DNA of 64,000 bases from Magnetococcales bacterium. GTDB taxonomy: Bacteria; Pseudomonadota; Magnetococcia; Magnetococcales; Magnetaquicoccaceae. The stretch lies in NCBI GenBank assembly GCA_015233035.1, contig JADFYM010000001.1, positions 62,001 through 126,000 on the forward strand. The letters are read 5' to 3'. Positions 44,810 through 58,803 of this stretch are shown here, in pieces (the first letter of the stretch is position 1; every line of letters starts with the position of its first letter). Both the position numbers and the translations under genes were made by a program. The notes under the pieces were generated by a model. The model saw only the letters and a list, made by a program, of their open reading frames with translations. It ran no database searches and had not been told where the DNA came from.

Positions 44810-46816
44810 CTACGACCGCCCAATTTTATCCCGCACCACCATCCGCCCATCGCCATGCAGCAGATCGGAGGGGGCAGTATTGCGACGCAAGGGAAGCCGA
44901 AACAGCAGCACAAGCGTCACCACAAACACCGCCAGAAAGACCTCCCCCATGGTCAGGAGAATGGGTTGCCAGGGCAGGGGCAAAATTTCAAAATCATACC
45001 CCGGTGGCAGCAAATCCTGATAATGGGTGATGATGCCCTTGAAACCATCATCCAGCAACAGCCGCAACAATGGAATAAACACAAACACCGCCACCGCCCC
45101 CCCCACGGCGGTCGCCAGCACCATTTGCCAAACCAGCTTGGCATAGATACCCATCCAGGTAAAACCCCGGCTGAGCAGAATGCCATAATGGTGCCGTCGA
45201 TGTCCCACCAGCGTGCCGACCTGGGCCAACAACAAGGCGGACAAAAACAGCCCAAAGGTCAGCGCGTAGGCGGGCACCATGGTGGACAGCAGGTCACTGA
45301 GCAGATTGAACCGATTCAGGGCATCCCGATACATGGTCTGAATGCTCAGGGCGTGTACCCCATCCGGGGTGCGCAGGGCCAACAATTCCTGGATGCCCCG
45401 ACTCAGATGGGTCGGGTCCGGGACATAGACATGAATCGCCGCGAGCGAGGCCCCGTCACTGGTGACATCCCACGGCACAAACAAAGGTGCCGCCGCCGTA
45501 TTGGGCTTGGCCTCTTCGGGACACAACATGCCCCGCAAGGCGTTGGAACGGGGCAAACGCTGGCATGGCACCCATAAACGATTGTTGGTGTCATGGTTGA
45601 GCGTGTCCCATATCTCGTGTACGTTTTGCCCGCCTGTCTCGTAGCGGGAGAGCGGCGACAACGGTTTGTTCTCCACTTTGAGGGGACGCAAATCACCAGC
45701 GGACGGACTGGGACAAACATCCTCTTTGACCTTGGGCAGATCGGTCAAACCCGTGGCAGCGACCGCCGTATGCACACACCGTTCATACGCCGTCAGTGTC
45801 TCCCTGGGAAAAGAATGTGAGGTCAACCACCGATAGTGGTCCGGGTCGCCCCGGCCCTGCGTGAGCGGATCATAGCGCAAGTCGGGAAAATGATAGGCCG
45901 CCAGCAAGGCATGATAGGTGGACAATGGAAACAAAAAGGCCACCTGTTCCATGCTGGGAATATGGTGTACCCAGCGCACACGAAACGGGACCAACTCTTC
46001 CCGACTGCCCACGGTCACCTTCAGCCACAATGTATTCAACGCATTTTTCAACTCTCCTTGTGGCAGTTTGGCCGGGAGTCGGCGCAATTTTTTCTGCTGC
46101 AAGATCGGTTGAATCGCCTCTCGATAGGCCGCATAGTCAAACTGGTTGGCAAACAGCGATTCGCTCAGGACAATCGACAGGGGCAATCCCTGCCATCCCT
46201 CTCCCTTCTCCCCGGCGTCCCGGTTGTCCCCCGCAGACAACGGTTCTTTTTCCTCCTCCCTGGAGGCAGTGGTCTCTTTGTCCTGGCTCTCTCCCGACGC
46301 AGCCGCAGTTGAGGCCGCAGGCTGGGCCTGGTTGGCCCCCAGATTCCATAAAGGATCGTCGGCATAAACGGCCCAACCTACCCAGGGCACCCCAGAGGTC
46401 CAGACCCCTTCCACGGGCAGACGTACCTGCGGGCTGTTGTCCCCCAGGCGTCGATACGGATGCACGGTGATGCCGAACGACTCACCGGGCACATTTTTTT
46501 CCATCTCCTTCAAGCGATCCAACAGATTGCTCTGGATCCCCTCATGGTTTTCCCAGTGGGCGGTGACCCAAATCGGCACCCCGTAGGGTCGCAGGGTGCC
46601 GAGAATGGCATCCGTGAAGCGATCCACCAGACCAGCCCTGGTTCCCACCAGCAGCAGGGCCATGCTGATCACCAACGCCAGCAGGAGGGTCAGCCAAAAA
46701 AAATCGCGGCCCCCACTGACACAACCAAACCGGCCACACACAAAGGAACGCCAATAGGCGCGGCTCCCCATGACGGCCCAAACGGGAATAATTCGGCGAG
46801 ATCTTGTCTTTTCCAT
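44810..46816 (-). CDS. FtsX/MacB-type ABC transporter permease
   Basis: Membrane protein of 668 residues in the FtsX/LolC/MacB mould: TM1 about 40-60, a very large periplasmic domain (about 65-500) with an acidic low-complexity stretch near 165-205, then three TM segments (about 515-540, 560-590, 620-645). It is presumably the partner of the ABC ATPase at 48721. The pair are separated by the DUF4276/ATPase genes. Such permeases pass cytoplasmic ATP energy to periplasmic proteins rather than transport through the membrane. ATG 46816; ribosome site weak. The substrate is unknown. Confidence 0.82.
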   Translation of the reverse strand: MEKTRSRRIIPVWAVMGSRAYWRSFVCGRFGCVSGGRDFFWLTLLLALVISMALLLVGTRAGLVDRFTDAILGTLRPYGVPIWVTAHWENHEGIQSNLLDRLKEMEKNVPGESFGITVHPYRRLGDNSPQVRLPVEGVWTSGVPWVGWAVYADDPLWNLGANQAQPAASTAAASGESQDKETTASREEEKEPLSAGDNRDAGEKGEGWQGLPLSIVLSESLFANQFDYAAYREAIQPILQQKKLRRLPAKLPQGELKNALNTLWLKVTVGSREELVPFRVRWVHHIPSMEQVAFLFPLSTYHALLAAYHFPDLRYDPLTQGRGDPDHYRWLTSHSFPRETLTAYERCVHTAVAATGLTDLPKVKEDVCPSPSAGDLRPLKVENKPLSPLSRYETGGQNVHEIWDTLNHDTNNRLWVPCQRLPRSNALRGMLCPEEAKPNTAAAPLFVPWDVTSDGASLAAIHVYVPDPTHLSRGIQELLALRTPDGVHALSIQTMYRDALNRFNLLSDLLSTMVPAYALTFGLFLSALLLAQVGTLVGHRRHHYGILLSRGFTWMGIYAKLVWQMVLATAVGGAVAVFVFIPLLRLLLDDGFKGIITHYQDLLPPGYDFEILPLPWQPILLTMGEVFLAVFVVTLVLLFRLPLRRNTAPSDLLHGDGRMVVRDKIGRS

Positions 46817-46827
46817 GTCTTTATTTA

Positions 46828-47499
46828 TCAGGGAGAGGCCAGTGATTTAAGATGATTGATCCATTGATTGAACAAGGGGCATTGGGCCAGGATGGTCTCC
46901 AGGCCGATTTCAAGGGCTGCCAGAGGACCATGTCGAGGCTTGTCATACGGGGAGAAAAGCTTCTCAATACGCTTGCTGGGGGCCGTATGGGGGCTGTCAT
47001 TGATCGCCTCTGGAGAATCGAAACCATTCCGAATGGTGCGAAAATCGCTGGCCAGATCCCGCTGGCCAATCCCTCGCGCCAATCCGTCCGGGTCACTGAA
47101 CAACAACCCCTCAAATTCATGCATTTGCACATAAGGGATAAAACGGTACCAGGAAGATTCCCCCAACTCTGCCTTGATTTTCTCGGTCAGCGCGTCGATA
47201 ATACACATATATTTGTCGGATACAACCGTTTTTTGTTGCGCATTTTTCTTTCCCGGAAAATCAGGATGCAACCCATAGAAGTCAAAAAATGTGGTACAAT
47301 ACGCTGTACTATCTCCCAGTAACAACTTGCGCAGATCAGCATACAGCCGATCAAATTGAATATTTCCACCCTGGTGTCCTGGTCTGCCAATCAACTTGGC
47401 GATCAAATCAATGCCCTCATGGACAAAGTGTTCTTTCAGCAATTCATTGACGAACATTGTCTCTGTCCGTCCTTCACAAATAATGTAGATTCGAATCAT
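46828..47499 (-). CDS. DUF4276-family protein
   Basis: A 223-residue protein with the DUF4276 landmarks: N-terminal strand and IICEGRTETMFV (about 5-16), a middle TTFFDFYGLHPDFPGK, YVQMHEFEGLLFSD (about 120), then a helical tail. The acidic motifs (CEGRTE, D-x-Y-G, HEFE) resemble a TOPRIM-like nuclease core; this is a structural guess. It overlaps the ATPase gene upstream by 4 bases (ATGA), so the two work together. Base composition is more AT-rich than the neighbours, which suggests transfer. Confidence 0.83.
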   Translation of the reverse strand: MIRIYIICEGRTETMFVNELLKEHFVHEGIDLIAKLIGRPGHQGGNIQFDRLYADLRKLLLGDSTAYCTTFFDFYGLHPDFPGKKNAQQKTVVSDKYMCIIDALTEKIKAELGESSWYRFIPYVQMHEFEGLLFSDPDGLARGIGQRDLASDFRTIRNGFDSPEAINDSPHTAPSKRIEKLFSPYDKPRHGPLAALEIGLETILAQCPLFNQWINHLKSLASP

Positions 47500-48596
47500 G
47501 AACGGGGACTCTCATCCAAGATCTTTTTCGCCCACAGTTCACCCACCGAATATTCCTCCAACCAGGAAGCAAAGGCTTCCTCTTTGTGTCGCGTAAGGCG
47601 TGTTACGCCTTGTTTCCGTTCCACGATGATCAGGCTATCAATCGAAAATTCGTTTACCAGAAAAACGGACTGGGTGGCCACAATCACCTGCATGCGTTTG
47701 GAAGCGGAACGCAGCAGGGAACCCAACAGGGCGATGGCATGAGGATGAAGCCCCAACTCAGGCTCGTCAATAATGATGGTAGAGGGCGGATCCGGTTGCA
47801 GCAGTGCCGTTGCCAAACAGATAAAGCGCAACGCACCATCGGAAATTTGGCTGGGCCATAAAGTATAGTCACTCGCCTTTTGCTGCCACAATAACCGTAT
47901 CTGTTGCTCACCTGAAGGCAGATCTCTGGGTGTAAGGATAAAGTCATCAAAAAACGGAACCGCCAGACAAACAGTCTTGCGAATTTGTTGATAAATATCT
48001 GGAAATTCCTCTTTCAGCCGATACAAAAACGCAGCGAGATTTGATGCGTCGGGACGCAAGCGTTCATCGTCATGCAACGCTCCCCAACGCTTCACACCCG
48101 CCGTTTCGCTGGTGTCATGGAAATGAAAGATCGTCCATCGCGAGATGGAACGGTAGCAATACTCTGCGACAACATCATGTGTTCGTTCAATTTTTAACTG
48201 CGATTCGCCATGCCCATTACCCAGGTTTGGTCGGGTTGGCCCCTGGAGTGGGCCTTTGCAATAAAGCTGTTCGGTGGCAAAAACAAACCCACCCTCCACG
48301 GTTGGTTCAAGAACTGCCTCGTAGCCATTTAATCCGAACCGGATGCTGAACTCAAACTGGGACGTCTGTTTTACACCGAAGGTTACGATGCGATCCGCTC
48401 CACCCTGTTTGGTCGTCCACAACTGCAAACGCTGTTCGATCAACTCTCTCAACATGATGAAAAAAGAAATAAAATTACTCTTTCCCGCCCCGTTGGAGCC
48501 AATCAAAACATTCAGGTTGCCCAACACCAATGAATCCAGTCCCTGGATGGACTTGAAACCCTTGATGGAAAGTGTCGAAATGGGATGGTTGTTCAT
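47496..48596 (-). CDS. AAA ATPase of a two-gene module (AAA_21-like)
   Basis: SMC-like ATPase of 366 residues: Walker A LIGSNGAGKSNF (about 31-41), signature region SQISDGALRFICLATALL, Walker B TIIIDEPELGLHPHA (about 268-282) and switch His/Gln region IVATQSV. No coiled-coil arm. Coupled to the DUF4276 gene. ATPase + TOPRIM-like pairs are a common design of anti-phage systems (Gabija, PARIS, some Abi pairs), which makes defence a fair inference, not a demonstration. It starts at ATG 48596; the hairpin repeat at 48641 lies just upstream. Confidence 0.85.
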   Translation of the reverse strand: MNNHPISTLSIKGFKSIQGLDSLVLGNLNVLIGSNGAGKSNFISFFIMLRELIEQRLQLWTTKQGGADRIVTFGVKQTSQFEFSIRFGLNGYEAVLEPTVEGGFVFATEQLYCKGPLQGPTRPNLGNGHGESQLKIERTHDVVAEYCYRSISRWTIFHFHDTSETAGVKRWGALHDDERLRPDASNLAAFLYRLKEEFPDIYQQIRKTVCLAVPFFDDFILTPRDLPSGEQQIRLLWQQKASDYTLWPSQISDGALRFICLATALLQPDPPSTIIIDEPELGLHPHAIALLGSLLRSASKRMQVIVATQSVFLVNEFSIDSLIIVERKQGVTRLTRHKEEAFASWLEEYSVGELWAKKILDESPRS

Positions 48597-48720: not shown

Positions 48721-49527
48721 TCAAGCCCCACGCGCCGCCGCCTCCACCGCCGCCTCCTTTTTGCCCCCCTTCAGGCGCAAAAGGCAACGGTTGTTGGCCA
48801 CCATCAACCAATGGCTGACCCGTGGGTCAATCGCATCCGAACGATGATGCGTCACCCAGATCACCATGCGATCCCCCTTCGCCAACCAACGGTCCACCAG
48901 GGACATCACCTCCTGCCGGGTATCCGCATCCAGATTGCCCGTCGGTTCATCGGCAAACAATACATACGGATCATGAATCATGGCCTGCGCGAGAGCCACC
49001 CGCTGAAATTGTCCGCCCGACAACTCGTTGGGAAACCGTTCCAGAAATTCTTCGGGCGAGGTATCCTCAATGCGTACCCCATCCTCATCCCGCAACAAAA
49101 CCCGATCCATCGCCGCATGAACCCGCCGATCCATCTCCGCATTGGAAAAGCCACCCAGCAACTCCAGCGGATAACGCAAATTTTCCCGCACCCGCAGATA
49201 CGGGGTCAGCGTACTGCTTTGATAGGCAAACCCGAAACATTGTCGCCGAATCTGGGTCAGATTCAAGGTGGACTCTTCCCGATCCAACCCCTTGGGCCCC
49301 CAAACGGCCCGTTGACCATCGGGAAAGGTCCAACGGACAATCCCCTCAGTGGGCCGTTTGAGAAAGGTCAACAGATAAAGCAAGGTGCTCTTGCCACTGC
49401 CACTGCGGCCCAGCACAGGCAGACGACCCGAGATCTGGTCGCTGTCCAGCTTCAACCCACCCACCAGCAGGCTGAAAGCATTGCCCCACGTCACCGTGGC
49501 GGTCCGTATCTGCACCCCCCAACTCAT
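48721..49527 (-). CDS. ABC transporter ATPase (LolD/MacB type)
   Basis: ATP-binding protein of 268 residues: Walker A LGRSGSGKST (about 40-48), Q-loop region FAYQSSTL, signature LSGGQFQRVALAQ, Walker B YVLFADEPTGNLDA and switch His WVTHH. This is the pattern of ATPases that drive FtsX-type permeases. Its ATG overlaps the VWA gene stop by 4 bases. The cognate permease is probably 44810-46816. Its C-terminus is Ala/Lys-rich. Confidence 0.9.
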   Translation of the reverse strand: MSWGVQIRTATVTWGNAFSLLVGGLKLDSDQISGRLPVLGRSGSGKSTLLYLLTFLKRPTEGIVRWTFPDGQRAVWGPKGLDREESTLNLTQIRRQCFGFAYQSSTLTPYLRVRENLRYPLELLGGFSNAEMDRRVHAAMDRVLLRDEDGVRIEDTSPEEFLERFPNELSGGQFQRVALAQAMIHDPYVLFADEPTGNLDADTRQEVMSLVDRWLAKGDRMVIWVTHHRSDAIDPRVSHWLMVANNRCLLRLKGGKKEAAVEAAARGA

Positions 49528-52172
49528 GGCAGAAATTCCTGGGGAATCCAGTAACCCCGCCGCCCCCCCAACGTATGGGCATAATGGTAGGACTTGTCCG
49601 GTCCCAAGGATTCACGCTGAATCGCCCCCTCCACCTTGAGCAGGGCACGCCCGTTGGGTGTGGCATCGGGACAACTGCGGGCCTGATAGGGCGCGGCCTG
49701 GAAGACCGGCTTGGAAAAATCCCGCTCGATGACTTCCAATATTTCCTTCGATTTGATCGCCCAGAGAGCCAGACGGCGCAGTTCACACACCGGCACGGCC
49801 AATATGGGTTGGCCCTTGCTGTCGGACAGCGGTTTTTTCTCCTTGTCCAGCACGATCAACCGCCCATCCTTGTTGCGTTCCACCTCTTCCGCCGACAGCG
49901 CATTGACATTATAGCTCAACAAAGGCGAGTGCCGCCGCACAGGCAGACCACCTCGGCGTTGGGCATATTCCGCCGGTGTCTCGCCCGCCACATCAATCGG
50001 TGGCCGACGAATTTCCTGCTGCAACCCCAGGACCATGGCACTGATCAGGGCACGCCGCAGTTGCGTCTCCGGCAGATCAAAATAGCCTTCAAACCCACGG
50101 AGAATACGGATCCAGGACGAGAGTTCCCCGCTGTTGATCCACAACTCTTCCACCACCTTGTCATCCGCCTCGATATAAGCAATCTGGGTCGTGTCATACA
50201 CCCGTTTTTCACACTGGTCCCCCAACTCGCCACAGGCCCCCTGCTTGAGAATGTGCCAGTAGACCCCCGGAATATCGACCCGTTCCCGGCGCAGACGTTC
50301 GATGACCGCACTCAACGCCGCCCCACCCCGCACGTCCAGGATAATCTCATTGATCAACTCCGAACTGCCCAGCTTTTCGACCGTCTGCACCATGCGGGAG
50401 ACCAGGGCATGATTGTCTGCCGTCATCTGGCCCAACTGGAAAAAATGTTCGGTCGTCTTGCTGGAAGCGGGCAGACTGTTGGTCAACAGATAATTGGCCT
50501 GCGTGGCAAACAACTCATACGCCCCCTTGTAGGCTCCCGGATTTTTGGCCTGCTTGACCAGAAAGGGGGTACGGATAAAGAAGGGGATAATATTGTTGGT
50601 CTTGCCCGCCGCCACATCGCCTCCCCGCAGCAGTTGGGCCAAGGTATCGGCTTTGACAGGGTGCTTGTATTTGGGACCACGGATCGGGTGGTTTTCCTTG
50701 TAGCCACTGTCCCCGATCATGAAGAGCAATTTGAGATGATCCGGGCAGGCAGACATATCCTTCTTTAACGCCTGCTCCAACCCGCCAAAACTGTTTTCTT
50801 CATAGTCATCCTCATCGTCGCTGGTGACATGCACCTTGGCGATGGCCGCCTGAAACTGTTCCAAAGCTTTTTGTTGCTGATCGGCATCCATCTGACAGGT
50901 ATCCGGGAAAGGCACCCCCTCGCCGATGCCATCCCCCAACCCACCGGGGACGCGATTGTCGGCATAGCTGTCCCGATACACCCGGAAACCAAACCGGAAC
51001 TGAGTCTCCCGGAAACCCTGGGTATCTTTCAGGGAGTGAATGATCTCCTGAATGACGCCACGCTGTGCGTCCGTGCCACGCACGGCATCGATGGATTGCT
51101 CCATGCTGGCGGTGGCATCCAGCAGAAAAAAGATATCCACCTGTTTTTTGGTGCTGAGCGATTGAACCTGCGGCATCACCTCCTTGGCCAAGGAGGGTGC
51201 GATGGCTACCGTATCGGCATCGATCCGCCGTGCCACCAGACCGGGACGGGCCAGTGCCACCTTGTAAAAACGCCGCCCGGTGGCCGTGGTCGTACCGGTG
51301 GCCAATTCGGTGGGCGAGACATTTTCCCCTCGGGCATTGAGCAGATCCAGCACGGGAATCCGCAACGGCGACTGAAACCAGGCCGACCCCCCCTCCACCG
51401 GTTGACAGGTTTTTTGATCCTGGCTCAACGCATCGCTCAACCGTTCATACGTGCAGATGGTCCCGTTACCCTTGCCATCCGGGGCATGCAAATCTTCCCG
51501 TGGCCGAAGGCTGAAGGCATTGTTCCAGATAAACCCATCTTTTTTGGCCGCCCAACCCAGCAGCACATCGTCTTCCTCCAGACGAAAACGGTCGCCCAGC
51601 AGCACGGCACGATCCGTCTGGTCGAAGACAAAATACATGTGAAACCGGGAGGCCCCCTCCCGACAATTGTCCCGCCCCCCGCTGCACTCCTTGAGTTCGG
51701 GATCCTGAAACACCTGCACGGTGGGCTCTTTGTTCTCGTTGGTCCGGGCGACCGTATCGGTCTTGATAAAAAATTTCATCTCCAGGCCGGATTCGCTCTT
51801 GATGGGCGTGTTGCGGCAGAGCAGATCGCTTTTCCGCACCCAGCCAACAGTCGGTTCTTTCTTTTTGAACCGATGCGAGTGAATCTTGACACGATCTTTG
51901 GCCTCCTCGGTGAGATCCATCTGTTGATTGAACTCCAGGGTACCCTCCGACTGCGTCGCGCTGGCATCCGCAAAAATTGGGGCATCCTGCCGGGCCGACC
52001 GGGCGACCCCGACCCACTTCAGACGACCGTTTTCATAAAAACGCGAAAAATCTAACTTGGCACAACTGCCAGATGACTCCTCTTCCCCCCAGACCGGGGC
52101 AACCGGCAGGAGAGACAGTAAACACAATACGACCAAAATGCGAACGGTCAGACGACAATCCATGGGTGTCAT
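49524..52172 (-). CDS. Exported VWA-domain protein of an ABC/FGE system
   Basis: A periplasmic protein of about 882 residues. The signal peptide (about 1-32, ends VWG-EE) is followed by SH3-like beta regions (about 45-120 and 190-250) and a von Willebrand A domain with the metal site DIFFLLDATASM (about 345-358; Thr replaces the first Ser of D-x-S-x-S) and LLFMIGDSGY. A long C-terminal part (about 560-882) is unrecognised and contains several Cys pairs. ATG at 52172 (GTG 52178 also possible). It lies 101 bases downstream of the FGE-like gene and overlaps the ATPase gene by 4 bases. Probably the mechanically driven partner of the ABC pair. No homologue with a known function is recalled. Confidence 0.8.
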   Translation of the reverse strand: MTPMDCRLTVRILVVLCLLSLLPVAPVWGEEESSGSCAKLDFSRFYENGRLKWVGVARSARQDAPIFADASATQSEGTLEFNQQMDLTEEAKDRVKIHSHRFKKKEPTVGWVRKSDLLCRNTPIKSESGLEMKFFIKTDTVARTNENKEPTVQVFQDPELKECSGGRDNCREGASRFHMYFVFDQTDRAVLLGDRFRLEEDDVLLGWAAKKDGFIWNNAFSLRPREDLHAPDGKGNGTICTYERLSDALSQDQKTCQPVEGGSAWFQSPLRIPVLDLLNARGENVSPTELATGTTTATGRRFYKVALARPGLVARRIDADTVAIAPSLAKEVMPQVQSLSTKKQVDIFFLLDATASMEQSIDAVRGTDAQRGVIQEIIHSLKDTQGFRETQFRFGFRVYRDSYADNRVPGGLGDGIGEGVPFPDTCQMDADQQQKALEQFQAAIAKVHVTSDDEDDYEENSFGGLEQALKKDMSACPDHLKLLFMIGDSGYKENHPIRGPKYKHPVKADTLAQLLRGGDVAAGKTNNIIPFFIRTPFLVKQAKNPGAYKGAYELFATQANYLLTNSLPASSKTTEHFFQLGQMTADNHALVSRMVQTVEKLGSSELINEIILDVRGGAALSAVIERLRRERVDIPGVYWHILKQGACGELGDQCEKRVYDTTQIAYIEADDKVVEELWINSGELSSWIRILRGFEGYFDLPETQLRRALISAMVLGLQQEIRRPPIDVAGETPAEYAQRRGGLPVRRHSPLLSYNVNALSAEEVERNKDGRLIVLDKEKKPLSDSKGQPILAVPVCELRRLALWAIKSKEILEVIERDFSKPVFQAAPYQARSCPDATPNGRALLKVEGAIQRESLGPDKSYHYAHTLGGRRGYWIPQEFLP

Positions 52173-52273
52173 TCTCACGGTAAGGCATCCCTCTCTCAAT
52201 TTAAGGATGGGAACAAAATGGCGAGCGGTCTTGCATACCACCCGGTGCAGAATATTGGGTTTTGCAAATTTAT

Positions 52274-53275
52274 TCAATGGTTGGTTTTCTCTGTCTGGTC
52301 GCCCTTCTGTGGATCGATCGGGGCAGAGTGCAACACCATGCGAAACCCGGCCACCGAAAACATGCCGGGCATACAGATGGGCTGGTTGCTCTGGGAATCA
52401 GCCCCCCAGTCCTCTTCACCCACCAGATAATATCCCACGGCACACGGGGAACGGGTCCACTCGCTGCCGCCCTGGAGCAATGATTTCAAAGGTGTACGGT
52501 CAAACGCATCACTGGGTTTGGGTAACGGCGCGCCTGAATTGTACAGATGAATGAGCGCGGCAAGCCACTCCTCGCGCGAGGGCACATCGTAGTGACAACC
52601 CGTTTTTTGCTGCAACCACTGGGCAAAATCCAGGGCGGCTTCATGAGAGATGCCCTTGACGGCAGGCGTGCTGGTCTCGCCCCGATTCCAGAACATGCCC
52701 AGATGAGAAACCAGGCGTTCCTTCTCCTCCCCGGCGGGCATGACATCGATGGAATCCGCATATTGCTTGAACAAGGCCTGGGTCACGGGCTGGTCTTGTA
52801 ACCAAAAGGGTGCCTCCACGACAATGGTTTCCGCAGCGTGGGCATGGGTGAAGGGGTACAAGCCGGAGGTGGGGGTCGGCAAGGGATAGCTCCCCACGGG
52901 AATCGGCAGCAGAGTGAAAGCCGTTTGCGCCTGTTCCGCCAGCAGACAGGCCTGGCCAAGGTTTTTGTCTGGTTGTTGTTTGGGTGACGGCTGGCCGGGA
53001 GAGGAGAGCCAAGTCCCGATCTGGGCCATTTTCGTTGCCACAACGGACCAACCCGATCGCACCGCAGGCCAACCCAGAACCAACAAGACAATGAGCAAAA
53101 TCGGGAGCAACCAGACGAGGGGACGACGGGAGGTCTCTCTTTTCGGGGCTGGGGCGGACACCCGCTTGACCCGGACAGCGGCGGGATAGGCCGATCGGAC
53201 CCCATACGCACGGCGCGATGTTTTCGCAAAGGGATTGAACCGCGCTACCCAGTGTAAAAAATGGCTGATGTTCAC
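52274..53275 (-). CDS. Membrane-anchored FGE-sulfatase (SUMF1-like) domain protein
   Basis: A 333-residue protein with a basic cytoplasmic N-terminus, one TM segment (about 53-72, PLVWLLPILLIVLLVLGWPA) and an extracytoplasmic domain of the formylglycine-generating-enzyme fold: FWLQDQPVTQALFKQYA, PAVKGISHEAALDFAQWL, YDVPSREEWLAA, GGSEWTRSP and VAGFRMVLHS. The catalytic Cys pair of true FGE is not obvious, so it may be a binding module. Start at GTG 53275 with GGGGGAG seven bases upstream; no ATG fits. It is the first gene of the leftward FGE-VWA-ABC unit and divergent from trmJ. Confidence 0.78.
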   Translation of the reverse strand: MNISHFLHWVARFNPFAKTSRRAYGVRSAYPAAVRVKRVSAPAPKRETSRRPLVWLLPILLIVLLVLGWPAVRSGWSVVATKMAQIGTWLSSPGQPSPKQQPDKNLGQACLLAEQAQTAFTLLPIPVGSYPLPTPTSGLYPFTHAHAAETIVVEAPFWLQDQPVTQALFKQYADSIDVMPAGEEKERLVSHLGMFWNRGETSTPAVKGISHEAALDFAQWLQQKTGCHYDVPSREEWLAALIHLYNSGAPLPKPSDAFDRTPLKSLLQGGSEWTRSPCAVGYYLVGEEDWGADSQSNQPICMPGMFSVAGFRMVLHSAPIDPQKGDQTEKTNH

Positions 53276-54224: not shown

Positions 54225-54360
54225 CCAGTGCATTGTTCGAGGCCCAGGACCAGGAAAAACCGGACCGATAATCATCCCTCGCCAAACCAAGGCCACCTAT
54301 GTACGATGGGAATATTCAAAAGTATATGAAGGTGTTTGGAGTGTTGTGATGGGAGAATCC

Positions 54361-56094
54361 ATGCGTATAACACGCCTGACCTTGAAAAATTTCAAGAGCA
54401 TCAAGGAACAGGTATACGATTTCGGGCAGTTTGATCTGCTGGTTGGCCGCAACAACAGTGGCAAAAGCACGGTGTTGCAATCCTTGGCTATTTGGCAGTT
54501 CTGCGTGGATCTGTTTCACCAATCCAAACGAAGCGGTTCCAAGGGCATTCAGGTAGTGTTGCCCAACTTTACGGCCCTGCCGTTGCCGGAATTCAACCTG
54601 CTTTGGAAGGACAGGACAGATCGGTTCTGGCCTGAAATCGATGGCAAAAAAAAACAAGAATATATCCAGATCCAGATTCTGGTGCGATGGCAATACGGCA
54701 ATGGCGGAGAGGCGGAGTTCGGCGTTGACCTGCGGTATCAATCGCCCCAAACTCTTTATGCCATCCCCTCTGATGGATGGGAACCTTTTCGCGAGTATGA
54801 AACCCGTGGAATGCCTAAAATTGTCTATATTCCACCCTATTCCGGTCTGGAACCTGCCGAGAAGCGGCTGGACGTTGCACCCATTCGTCAGCAGGTGGGC
54901 AAAGGGCAACCGGGCAGTGTGTTACGCAACCTGTTGTTGAGTGTCTCTCCTCCCGTTGGTCAAGAAGGGGATGGCCGTGCCACCAAACGCCACCCACCCT
55001 CTCAGGATTGGCAGGAATTGGCCAGGATGATCAAACTGTGGTTTTCGATGGAGATTCACGAACCGATCTATGATGCGTCCAGAGATGTGCATATTCGGGT
55101 CGAGTACAAACAGAACGACAAGAACTATGACATCATCGCCGGGGGGAGCGGTTTTCATCAAACATTGACCTTGCTGGCTTTCCTGTACGGTTATCGACCC
55201 ACCACGATGCTGATCGATGAACCAGATGCCCATTTGCACGCCAATCTGCAACGCGAACTGCTCGATTATTTCAAACAAAAATCCAATGAAACAGGGATGC
55301 AATGCCTGATTGCCACCCATGCGGAAGAGTTTTTGCGCGGCGTGGATGCCAGCCAGATTGTCTCCCTGCTGGATCAGGTACCCAGGCGCATTGAGTCCAC
55401 GCCACAAGTGGTGCGGGCACTGGCGGATGTCTCCAATGAGGAGATTGATCGGCTCCGGCAGTTTCCTTGTATCCTGTATGTGGAAGGTGCCAGCGACGAG
55501 CGTATTCTGCGTGCCTGGGCCGATTCATGTGCTGCTCAAAGCGTTATAAGTAAATCATTTTTCAAGAAGATGGGTGGCGGCAATAAAAAAGAAATGAACG
55601 AGATGGCCAACAAGCACTATGAGGCATTGCGTCAGATCATCCCGGATATGTCGCGAGTGGTGCTTTTTGATTATGACAGTAACGATAGCTTCCACCCCGG
55701 CATGGATAATCCTGCTCTGGCAGAATGGGGGCGCAAAAATATCGAAAACTATCTGCTGGTGCCGGATGCCTGGCGACGGGCAGCCCATAAAAAGGCGGGA
55801 CCGTTATTTGCCGCGCCTTTTTTGGCGGTGATCGATCACTTTTTTATGGAACAAAATTTGACCTTGCCCCCCAACAAAACCTGGCGGAATGTGACCGCGA
55901 ATATATTTCAGGTCGTGGATGGCAAGCGCATCCTGTTTGAAGACGACGACTCGCTTTTCCATCAATTGCAGGATGCAGACCCATCGGTGACTTTTCTTCG
56001 AGAAGATATTGCCTTGGGCATGGAAGCCGACGAAATTCACGATGATGTGCATCGTTTCATCGACAAACTGGCAAAACTGGCTGGAACCTCCTGA
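54361..56094 (+). CDS. OLD-like ATPase-TOPRIM endonuclease
   Basis: A protein of about 577 residues of the OLD/RecF-like group. Walker A GRNNSGKST (about 30), Walker B TMLIDEPDAHLH (about 283), switch His IATHAEEF, then a TOPRIM-like half with ILYVEGASDERIL (about 373) and VVLFDYDSNDSF (about 436). OLD proteins cut DNA and defend against phages. ATG 54361 with GGGAG six bases upstream; ATG 54349 is an alternative. It is followed after 36 bases by a KAP NTPase, and is lower in GC than trmJ, as is common for transferred defence genes. Confidence 0.88.
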   Translation: MRITRLTLKNFKSIKEQVYDFGQFDLLVGRNNSGKSTVLQSLAIWQFCVDLFHQSKRSGSKGIQVVLPNFTALPLPEFNLLWKDRTDRFWPEIDGKKKQEYIQIQILVRWQYGNGGEAEFGVDLRYQSPQTLYAIPSDGWEPFREYETRGMPKIVYIPPYSGLEPAEKRLDVAPIRQQVGKGQPGSVLRNLLLSVSPPVGQEGDGRATKRHPPSQDWQELARMIKLWFSMEIHEPIYDASRDVHIRVEYKQNDKNYDIIAGGSGFHQTLTLLAFLYGYRPTTMLIDEPDAHLHANLQRELLDYFKQKSNETGMQCLIATHAEEFLRGVDASQIVSLLDQVPRRIESTPQVVRALADVSNEEIDRLRQFPCILYVEGASDERILRAWADSCAAQSVISKSFFKKMGGGNKKEMNEMANKHYEALRQIIPDMSRVVLFDYDSNDSFHPGMDNPALAEWGRKNIENYLLVPDAWRRAAHKKAGPLFAAPFLAVIDHFFMEQNLTLPPNKTWRNVTANIFQVVDGKRILFEDDDSLFHQLQDADPSVTFLREDIALGMEADEIHDDVHRFIDKLAKLAGTS

Positions 56095-56130
56095 TGGTAG
56101 TATTGGAAAAATCAACCCCAAGGATGCCTC

Positions 56131-57459
56131 ATGGAAAACAAAAACACCACGCCGCTGCATGTGCGACCCAAGAAGCATAACCCGGAAAAACCGTTCGATG
56201 GCGACCTCTTCAACCGCCAAAAATTAGCCGAGCAACTCACCGGCATGGTCGAGCGCATGGCCGATGGTTGTGTGTTCGCCATTGACGCACCGTGGGGCGA
56301 GGGCAAGACATGGTTTGGCGAAAACTGGGTTTCCAAGTTGCGTGCGGACGGTTTTTCCGTGGTGTTTATCGATGCGTTCAGGCAGGACTACGTCGAGGAT
56401 CCCTTTTTAATGGTCTGCTCGGAAATTTTGGCTGCATTCAAGGGAGGTGAGGCCAGGAACAAGCTCACTGATGCAGGAAAAATGGTCGTCAAGAGGCTCC
56501 TGCCAATCACCGCCAAGTTAGCAGTGCGTTTTGTCGGACACAGGCTGCTCGGTTCAGTCGATATGACGGAAGAGTTCCGTAAAACGGTCGAGGAGATCGA
56601 AAAAGGCGCGGAGAATGCCCTTGAAACACAACTGGCCAAGCGTCTTACCGACCATGCCGAAGACACAAGCAGCGTCGAGGGATTCGCAAAAGTTCTCGAG
56701 GAACAGGCCAAGAGCCTCAAGAAACCCCTGGTGGTCGTCATTGACGAACTGGATCGCTGCCGTCCCGATTTCGCGGTGCGGACGGTGGAGCGCATCAAGC
56801 ATTTTTTCGATGTGCCCGGCGTGGTGTTCGTGCTGCTTGTGAACCGTCCCCAACTCGAAGCCGCTATACAGGGCGTCTATGGGACTGAAGTGGACGCAAA
56901 GACGTATCTGGGCAAGTTCGTCCAATTCTGGCTACGCCTGCCCAAAAACCGCCCCAACGCATTGAGCGTTCTGGATAATAACTTAACTTACTGCAAAGAG
57001 TTGGCTCGCCGGTTCGGCCTGGATAAAACACCGGAGCACAGTGGTTTCCTGGAGGTATTTGCTAACCTGGCGAGTCTGAAGGGGCTTTCGCTGCGCGATC
57101 TCGAACGCGGGTATACGTTATACTCACTGGCTCAACCTGTCAGCAACGCAAGTGCTTTTTTCGGGTGGGCAATCTATCTGAAACTTGTCCGGCCAGATGT
57201 CCATGCTGGAATCCTCGCCGGGGAGCCTGCGGCCCACGAATCCGCCAGGGAGGTACTTGCCACTATGATCGAAACGGCACCGGGCTTGCCATTACTAACA
57301 GCCCTAGACGATTTGCATAGATCCCTGGTCGATGAGGACAACCCCTCGCTTTCCGAGCAAACGAAAAGCATCTTTATGCAATGCGGCAGTTGGGGCATTG
57401 TGCCTGCCCGATTCCTGCCATGGCTCTACGGCAAGATCGATCTGCACGTGGGAAACTGA
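56131..57459 (+). CDS. KAP-family P-loop NTPase
   Basis: A protein of 442 residues with Walker A APWGEGKTWF (about 53-62), Walker B VVVIDELDRCRPD (about 202-214) and the KAP landmarks FIDAFRQDYVEDPF and VFVLLVNRPQLEAAI, all typical of the KAP STAND-like NTPases. A helical region near 110-180 could be the membrane-association insert. KAP proteins occur in many defence clusters. ATG 56131 with AAGGA eight bases upstream. It is probably cotranscribed with the OLD-like gene; whether they act together is unproven. Confidence 0.87.
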   Translation: MENKNTTPLHVRPKKHNPEKPFDGDLFNRQKLAEQLTGMVERMADGCVFAIDAPWGEGKTWFGENWVSKLRADGFSVVFIDAFRQDYVEDPFLMVCSEILAAFKGGEARNKLTDAGKMVVKRLLPITAKLAVRFVGHRLLGSVDMTEEFRKTVEEIEKGAENALETQLAKRLTDHAEDTSSVEGFAKVLEEQAKSLKKPLVVVIDELDRCRPDFAVRTVERIKHFFDVPGVVFVLLVNRPQLEAAIQGVYGTEVDAKTYLGKFVQFWLRLPKNRPNALSVLDNNLTYCKELARRFGLDKTPEHSGFLEVFANLASLKGLSLRDLERGYTLYSLAQPVSNASAFFGWAIYLKLVRPDVHAGILAGEPAAHESAREVLATMIETAPGLPLLTALDDLHRSLVDEDNPSLSEQTKSIFMQCGSWGIVPARFLPWLYGKIDLHVGN

Positions 57460-57717: not shown

Positions 57718-58803
57718 ATGGCTTGGAATGATGGTGGTGGTGGACCCCAGGGACCATGGGGAACGGGGTCTGTGCCGCCGCAACCACCCGACATAGATAA
57801 AATTATCGAACTGCTGCGCGAAAAATTGGGCGGCAAAATGTCGGGCGGGCGGTTTTGGCCTTTTTTCGGGGGCGTCGTCCTGGTGTTGTGGATGGCCACC
57901 GGCATCTATCTGGTGGCACCCGACGAAAAGGGCATTGTGGTGCGCTTCGGTCGCTATGTGGAAACGACCGATTCGGGGCCCCACTTCCACCTGCCCTACC
58001 CGATAGAGGCCGCCTATACCCCCAAAGTCACCCAGGTGCAACGGGTCGAAATCGGCTATCGCACCCGTGGTCGTACCTCCGTGGCCGTGGCGGAAGAGTC
58101 TTTGATGCTGACGGGTGATGAAAATATTATCGACATCAACATGAGCGTACAATATCGCATCGAAGAAAATGGTGCCGCCAACTATTTGTTCAATATCAGA
58201 AATCCCAGCAGCGATCCCCATATGCTCGTGCGCAACGCCGCCGAGGCCTCCATTCGCCAGGTGATCGGACGCAACAGCATCGATACCGCCTTGACCACCG
58301 GCAAGGAAAAGATTCAGGCGGATACCAAACAGACCATGCAGGCCATCCTCGATAATTATCGCAGCGGGTTGCGCATCGTCGCCGTGCAGTTGCAACAGGT
58401 GGCCCCCCCGGAAGAGGTGGTCCATGCCTTCAAGGATGTGGCCAGTGCTCGCGAAGATCGGGAACGGGCCATCAACGAGGCCGAGGGCTATGCCAACGAT
58501 ATTTTGCCCAAGGCCAAGGGCGAGGCCGCCAAACAGGTGCAAGAGGCCGAGGCCTACAAAACAGCCCGAGTGACCAGAGCCGAAGGGGAGGTGCATCGCT
58601 TTTTGTCCCTGCTGGCCGAATACAACAAGGCCAAAGAGGTGACACGTACCCGTCTCTATCTGGAAACCATGGAAAAAATTCTGCCTGACATCAATAAACT
58701 GGTTGTCCAACCGGGTGGAAGTCAGGGGGTGTTGCCCTATCTGCCCCTGAATGGCAAAACCCTGCCTGCTGCTGAACCGGCCCCCAAGGGAGCAACGCCA
58801 TGA
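57718..58803 (+). CDS. hflK: HflK, membrane protease modulator
   Basis: SPFH/band-7 membrane protein of 361 residues that with HflC forms a cage around FtsH and controls its proteolysis. A Gly-rich N-terminus (MAWNDGGGGPQGPWG), one TM segment (about 45-65), then the SPFH domain (VAPDEKGIVVRFGRYVETTDSGPHFHLPYP) and a long coiled C-terminus rich in Ala/Glu (REDRERAINEAEGYANDILPKAKGEA). It overlaps hflC by 4 bases. Confidence 0.95.
   Translation: MAWNDGGGGPQGPWGTGSVPPQPPDIDKIIELLREKLGGKMSGGRFWPFFGGVVLVLWMATGIYLVAPDEKGIVVRFGRYVETTDSGPHFHLPYPIEAAYTPKVTQVQRVEIGYRTRGRTSVAVAEESLMLTGDENIIDINMSVQYRIEENGAANYLFNIRNPSSDPHMLVRNAAEASIRQVIGRNSIDTALTTGKEKIQADTKQTMQAILDNYRSGLRIVAVQLQQVAPPEEVVHAFKDVASAREDRERAINEAEGYANDILPKAKGEAAKQVQEAEAYKTARVTRAEGEVHRFLSLLAEYNKAKEVTRTRLYLETMEKILPDINKLVVQPGGSQGVLPYLPLNGKTLPAAEPAPKGATP

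Follow-up and report, generated by a model that had tools for sequence, protein, structure and literature searches.

The locus raises the question of what a leftward unit of four genes, encoding a membrane-anchored FGE/SUMF1-like protein, an exported VWA protein, an ABC ATPase, and an FtsX-type permease, contributes to the cell envelope. The unit lies in a 64,000-nucleotide stretch of DNA (the window) from the genome of a magnetotactic-type bacterium of the Magnetococcales; VWA proteins 82-84% identical to its own are encoded in Magnetococcales MAGs and in Candidatus Magnetaquicoccus. All four reading frames described in the first-pass annotation are found on the minus strand, with the permease gene falling outside the interval 48721-53275 originally given for the unit (Table 1). 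The unit adjoins a divergent TrmJ gene, and the start of the ABC gene overlaps the stop of the VWA gene by 4 bases (49524-49527). T6SS threonine phosphorylation loci encode TagR, an FGE-like protein, TagT, an ABC ATPase, TagS, a permease, and PpkA, which combines a kinase with a periplasmic VWA part and serves Pseudomonas to detect attack and to turn on its T6SS. The four genes of the window probably constitute an envelope sensing module of the TagRST/PpkA-ectodomain type without a kinase, a reading drawn from the homology of the VWA protein to PpkA, the PpkA-TagT-TagS gene order, and an FGE-like first gene, TagR being FGE-like too.

Table 1. Genes of the envelope unit and the insert that interrupts it (positions in the window).
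Feature	Position	Strand	Remark
FGE/SUMF1-like protein, 333 aa	52274..53275	-	upstream of the VWA gene in 21/21 Magnetococcales loci with enough flank
Exported VWA protein, 882 aa	49524..52172	-	homologue of the PpkA periplasmic part, by sequence
ABC ATPase, 268 aa	48721..49527	-	TagT-like position
Type VII (LolC/MacB/FtsX-class) permease, 668 aa, class from predicted fold	44810..46816	-	TagS-like position
Insert between ABC and permease genes, outside the system	46828..48596	-	HEC-01A/HEC-01B candidate defence pair

The conservation of the unit was assessed across genomes that are mostly MAGs. VWA homologues are present in 43 of 48 Magnetococcales genomes, the window's own included, and three of the five genomes without one are less than 80% complete; G025 and G026, more than 90% complete, also lack the gene. 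The order FGE-VWA-ABC-permease is kept in all 19 Magnetococcales loci read in detail; in loci with enough flank, the FGE gene is found in 21 of 21, the ABC gene in 22 of 22, and the permease gene in 21 of 22, one permease remaining undetected. The VWA-ABC-permease core also occurs outside Magnetococcales, in 14-15 of 18 assessable loci, encompassing Thiomargarita, Parabeggiatoa, other Thiotrichaceae, Rhodobacterales, a Rhodospirillaceae MAG, and others. Because the same order recurs across Magnetococcales, the unit is no product of chance, and its four genes form a single conserved envelope system. Rare co-occurrence of the four homologues had been named beforehand as the sign against such a system, and the outcome is the opposite, with the order conserved across Magnetococcales. 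An accidental adjacency of four unrelated envelope genes could draw on two observations: the FGE gene is the least conserved of the unit, with 26-48% identity to its window counterpart where VWA shows 55-83% within Magnetococcales, and the Rhodobacterales versions have no linked FGE. The conserved arrangement nevertheless refutes this reading, since every Magnetococcales family sampled keeps the order and Thiotrichaceae and Alphaproteobacteria keep its VWA-ABC-permease part; its probability is negligible.

The interruption between the ABC and permease genes consists of an AAA ATPase (47496-48596), matching HEC-01A (E 2.4e-137), and a DUF4276 protein (46828-47499), matching HEC-01B (E 1.2e-77); together they make up a HEC-01-type candidate defence pair. 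No relatives of either gene are found by tblastn in 19 Magnetococcales loci, and the pair occurs in the window genome only. Missing in the relatives and matching HEC-01, the pair was ruled out as a part of the system. The four genes were likewise rejected as a defence system, the FGE-like protein, the VWA protein, and the permease having no PADLOC match. A second window-specific insert, at 54346-57459 between TrmJ and a conserved gene at 57718, carries an AAA15-type ATPase (54346-56094) and a KAP NTPase matching PDC-S20 (E 1.8e-74), so that defence-like genes have been gained at both sites beside the operon.

The VWA protein begins with an ATG at 52172 and a signal peptide-like start, and contains 14 cysteines, 12 of them in the mature part; the set of cysteines kept throughout the family is consistent with a VWA protein of the periplasm that is rich in disulfides. 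Its Pfam score is below the cut-off, at 17.9 of the 27 bits needed, and its predicted structure (mean pLDDT 79) shows a VWA fold matching integrin I/VWA domains with E-values of about 2e-5 to 2e-4. The metal-site motif is DATAS, of the DxTxS type. No Pkinase match is found along its 882 residues.

The T6SS loci used for comparison were drawn from Pseudomonas-type genomes, the assignment to Pseudomonas being made by gene content. In five of these loci, an ABC gene comes after a gene whose product combines Pkinase and VWA domains, and the three read gene by gene continue with an FtsX-like permease gene and an FGE-like gene, then a lipoprotein-like gene. In these three, phosphatase-like and TagF-like genes lie in front of the kinase-VWA gene. 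A profile of window-type VWA proteins (A13), containing no PpkA-side sequence, aligns with PpkA of the five loci at an hhalign E-value of 2e-9, and adding a Gluconobacter protein as a bridge on the PpkA side gives 2.7e-15 over 298 columns. The alignment starts about 170 residues before the VWA domain, and the pattern D-x-T-x-S-M in the metal site is common to the window VWA family and PpkA. The five PpkA proteins score 33-35 bits with a VWA sub-profile, which has no match in 13 ordinary VWA-domain loci; two Pseudomonas-type genomes of this set account for 11 of these loci and the window genome for 2. The C-terminal third of the window VWA protein has no match to PpkA; a shared ...P..LP C-terminus, noticed by eye, was dropped, the C-terminal profile giving no support. 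A stronger hhalign match between profiles A5 and A7 (E 3.4e-17, 506 columns) was set aside and the comparison repeated without the Gluconobacter protein, because A5 included this PpkA-ectodomain orthologue and the match was inflated by it; an earlier hmmsearch has the same bias.

These profile comparisons make the window VWA protein a homologue of the PpkA periplasmic region. In a tree built by a quick method and with long branches, PpkA and the Gluconobacter protein fall on one side and the window VWA family on the other, with support of 100 for both sides. The separation into two branches implies that the divergence is old and that function may have drifted. The system had been described in the first-pass annotation as one without a known name, a description that is not borne out: the VWA protein is a PpkA-ectodomain relative, the ABC and permease genes are ordered as in PpkA-TagT-TagS, and the partner protein is FGE-like, as is TagR.

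The ABC ATPase carries the motifs GRSGSGKS (Walker A), LSGGQ, ADEPT, and THH, and its best models are FtsE, DevA, and LolD. Its 103 bits to the FtsE and LolD models are far below the equivalog cut-offs of 265 (FtsE) and 308 (LolD), and its match to TagT, at most 67 bits, is below even this score. The permease contains TM1 at about residues 46-64, a periplasmic domain at about 65-510, and TM2-4 at about 519-637, and its Pfam FtsX domain, like the FGE domain of the first protein, is recognised below threshold only. In the predicted structure (mean pLDDT 73), helices 37-72 and 494-640 flank the periplasmic domain, and the model matches LolC/LolE, MacB, FtsX, and BceB with a best E-value of 1.6e-7 and modest TM-scores of 0.2-0.4 by query length. 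The fold is closest to LolC/E and MacB. The permease resembles TagS weakly (hmmsearch E 2e-4, hhalign probability 21%) and in the C-terminal FtsX part only, and a plasmid search with the permease alone gave no match. Judged by the modelled fold, the pair belongs to the type VII ABC class of FtsEX, LolCDE, and MacB; the assignment of this class in the first-pass annotation is borne out by the fold and the conserved gene set, which together make it natural to read the VWA protein as the target of an ATP-driven permease.

The same evidence, with a LolC/E- and MacB-like permease fold and an ATPase scoring best with FtsE, DevA, and LolD models, feeds the main rival to the sensing module, namely an envelope machine in which the ATPase and permease work mechanically on the VWA protein, as in LolCDE, MacAB, and FtsEX-EnvC. 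The VWA protein would then bind or remodel an outer-membrane, peptidoglycan, or pilus component, with the FGE-like domain as scaffold. The relationship of the VWA protein to a signalling ectodomain stands against this rival, which we regard as unlikely but well above the level of a formality.

The FGE-like protein starts with a GTG at 53275 and has one TM, at residues 54-72, with the FGE domain C-terminal to it. It scores 22.4 bits against Pfam PF03781, just below the cut-off of 23.3, and its family profile matches formylglycine-generating enzymes and relatives in the PDB with E-values from 5e-8 to 1e-5; by sequence it retains the N-terminal half of the FGE fold. True FGEs use a C-x4-C cysteine pair. 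This pair is absent from the window protein, whose cysteines are 110, 227, 278, and 301 only. The suggestion that the FGE-like domain decorates the VWA protein therefore appears unlikely from the missing pair, and a study of Pseudomonas reports an interaction of TagR with the C-terminal portion of PpkA, where the VWA domain lies (PMC3224232). The FGE-like profile has no significant match to TagR, and a TagR-like role is proposed for the protein. A stand-alone modification system, in which the FGE-like domain would modify the VWA protein and an ABC exporter would move it or its product, takes its appeal from the adjacency of an FGE-like gene to a gene for an exported protein; it is highly improbable, with only C278 and C301 kept in the half of the domain where the C-x4-C pair is absent, a VWA protein whose own signal peptide makes an ABC exporter unnecessary, and a permease class that is not a protein exporter.

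Relatives in other settings extend the range of the sensing module. On the Gluconobacter albidus plasmid pGS1191_1 (L080:879-12686), the order is srfB-srfC-unknown gene-VWA-ABC-permease-FGE (SUMF1-family), with no kinase. All three parts of the PpkA ectodomain are matched by the plasmid's VWA protein (E 2e-30 to 9e-43, 37% identity), which begins with a signal peptide-like stretch; the permease matches TagS (E 4e-41) and the FGE-like protein matches TagR (E 8e-47), which makes the three clear kinase-free orthologues. The kinase is dispensable, since a kinase-free PpkA-ectodomain orthologue is encoded with TagS and TagR in an srfB/srfC operon. Genes of the threonine phosphorylation pathway near srfB/srfC without T6SS machinery were described in oral Deltaproteobacteria in 2013 (PMC3608642).

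A protein here called X precedes the core in Rhodobacterales and the Rhodospirillaceae MAG, where the core lies among Tad genes for a CpaF/TadA-type ATPase, RcpC/CpaB, TadE, and T2SSF (L122, L123, L124, L131, L133, and L134); protein X, at L124:5539-7716 in one example, is about 500-970 aa long, has no Pfam match in those scanned, and recurs in Thiotrichaceae. The second Tad ATPase of L124 (15676-17610) seemed by eye to contain an FHA domain, but this was not retained, having no Pfam or PDB support. Some alphaproteobacterial relatives lie directly before the CpaF/TadA-type ATPase gene in these Tad-pilus loci, a placement that favours mechanical work on an envelope component. Conversely, the gene upstream of X-VWA-ABC-permease in Thiomargarita (L114:1519-3312) encodes a fusion of the FGE partner with a Ser/Thr kinase domain, which speaks for signalling. 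VWA genes are duplicated in tandem in Thiotrichaceae operons (L120:7916-11652, L128:6096-10661, and L138). In the version on a Sagittula stellata plasmid (L079:9417-17341), an additional gene for a 1068-aa protein separates FGE from VWA, and a MotA/TolQ/ExbB-family gene lies downstream.

Output partners were sought within Magnetococcales. TssK is absent from the window genome and the sampled Magnetococcales and present in 88 of 399 Pseudomonadota in the same search. Protein X is not found in the 51 genomes of the Magnetococcales search, and the Tad marker RcpC has no match above the cut-off in Magnetococcales and one sub-threshold match (G013), the positive controls being detected; SrfB has no match above the cut-off there, its positive control also being detected. 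X as a missing part, and Tad or srf as a partner in Magnetococcales, were accordingly rejected, and the lack of RcpC above the cut-off in this order also weighs against the mechanical rival. No kinase, T6SS, or phosphatase gene lies beside the window operon, an arrangement that lends that rival some support. The window genome contains nine kinase-domain matches, none linked to the operon, at least two of which are kinase-FGE fusions by eye.

As a working model of the sensing module, the ABC ATPase and the permease, assigned to type VII by fold, would form an inner-membrane complex in which ATP binding and hydrolysis move the periplasmic domain without transport, by analogy with LolCDE, MacB, and FtsEX. 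The soluble, disulfide-rich VWA protein would act as the periplasmic receptor, its homology to PpkA being the firm part and the gripping of a partner by its metal site a conjecture. The membrane-anchored FGE-like protein, lacking the cysteine pair, would bind the VWA protein, much as TagR reportedly interacts with PpkA, and would not modify it. Pseudomonas TagQRST is triggered by membrane perturbation and responds to attack by a T6SS or T4SS as well as to polymyxin B, EDTA, and extracellular DNA; its sensing and hand-over of the signal to PpkA are described as poorly characterised (PMC11323562). With these triggers as a guide, an envelope insult or contact may shift the complex, and the ATPase may reset or propagate its state. 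Because no kinase is carried by the VWA protein, the output would have to pass through a separate partner, possibly one unlinked Ser/Thr kinase or an envelope machine.

TagQRST has been called restricted to Pseudomonas (PMC6082577). The occurrence of a PpkA-related sensor without a kinase or T6SS suggests a portable part serving other outputs. A broader proposal, which we advance tentatively as having somewhat less than an even chance, is that the TagRST/PpkA-ectodomain set is one branch of an older, portable envelope-contact sensor and not a T6SS accessory, with outputs differing between a fused kinase and T6SS in Pseudomonas, Tad pili in Rhodobacterales, srfBC in Gluconobacter, and a kinase-free output in Magnetococcales and Thiotrichaceae. 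Kinase-free relatives in T6SS-less bacteria separate sensing from the kinase and the weapon, and can therefore reveal what the VWA protein, the FGE-like protein, and the ABC pair do alone. The Tad-linked and srf-linked versions suggest other machines under the same kind of sensor, and the Gluconobacter set may bear on srfABC function. No description of the kinase-free family or of its Tad-linked form was found in the literature searched, most subscription journals lying outside its scope.

With FGE/SUMF1 and PvdO, the window FGE-like protein shares the N-terminal half of the FGE fold, by sequence, but not the catalytic C-x4-C pair. LolCDE, MacAB, FtsEX-EnvC, and YbbAP resemble the window pair in permease topology and fold and in an FtsE/LolD-like ATPase, whereas none of them has VWA and FGE-like partners, and the window ATPase falls short of an equivalog-level match to FtsEX or LolCDE proper. 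The Tad-associated X-VWA-ABC-permease loci differ in that Magnetococcales lack X, and RcpC above the cut-off. The srf-linked tagQRST/ppkA neighbourhoods (PMC3608642; L080) share a TagRST-type set without an adjacent T6SS, and the Gluconobacter locus is also kinase-free; however, their partners are srfB/srfC, and the Gluconobacter set counts as a true PpkA/TagS/TagR relative, the window family forming a separate branch.

The threonine phosphorylation pathway (TPP; TagQRST-PpkA-PppA-Fha, H1-T6SS type) combines likeness and difference. Three features are alike: a VWA protein that is a homologue of the PpkA periplasmic region, with the DxTxS motif and the pre-VWA region; an ABC gene and then an FtsX-type permease gene directly after the VWA gene, the HEC-01 pair preceding the permease gene in the window genome; and an FGE-like periplasmic protein encoded beside the VWA-ABC-permease set in both, although the window protein gives no significant profile match to TagR itself. 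Conversely, the window VWA protein has no fused kinase, the operon has no PppA or TagF neighbour, the window genome and the sampled Magnetococcales have no T6SS, the permease is half as long again (668 against about 400 aa), and the FGE-like protein is anchored in the inner membrane and encoded first; by sequence, the permease matches TagS in its last part only and the ATPase scores lower with TagT than with FtsE and LolD models, so that TagS-like and TagT-like describe gene position. Membership of the TPP fails because the VWA protein carries no kinase and T6SS is lacking; distinct from such membership, the window set is, as its sequences indicate, a homologous receptor within the same gene set and order.
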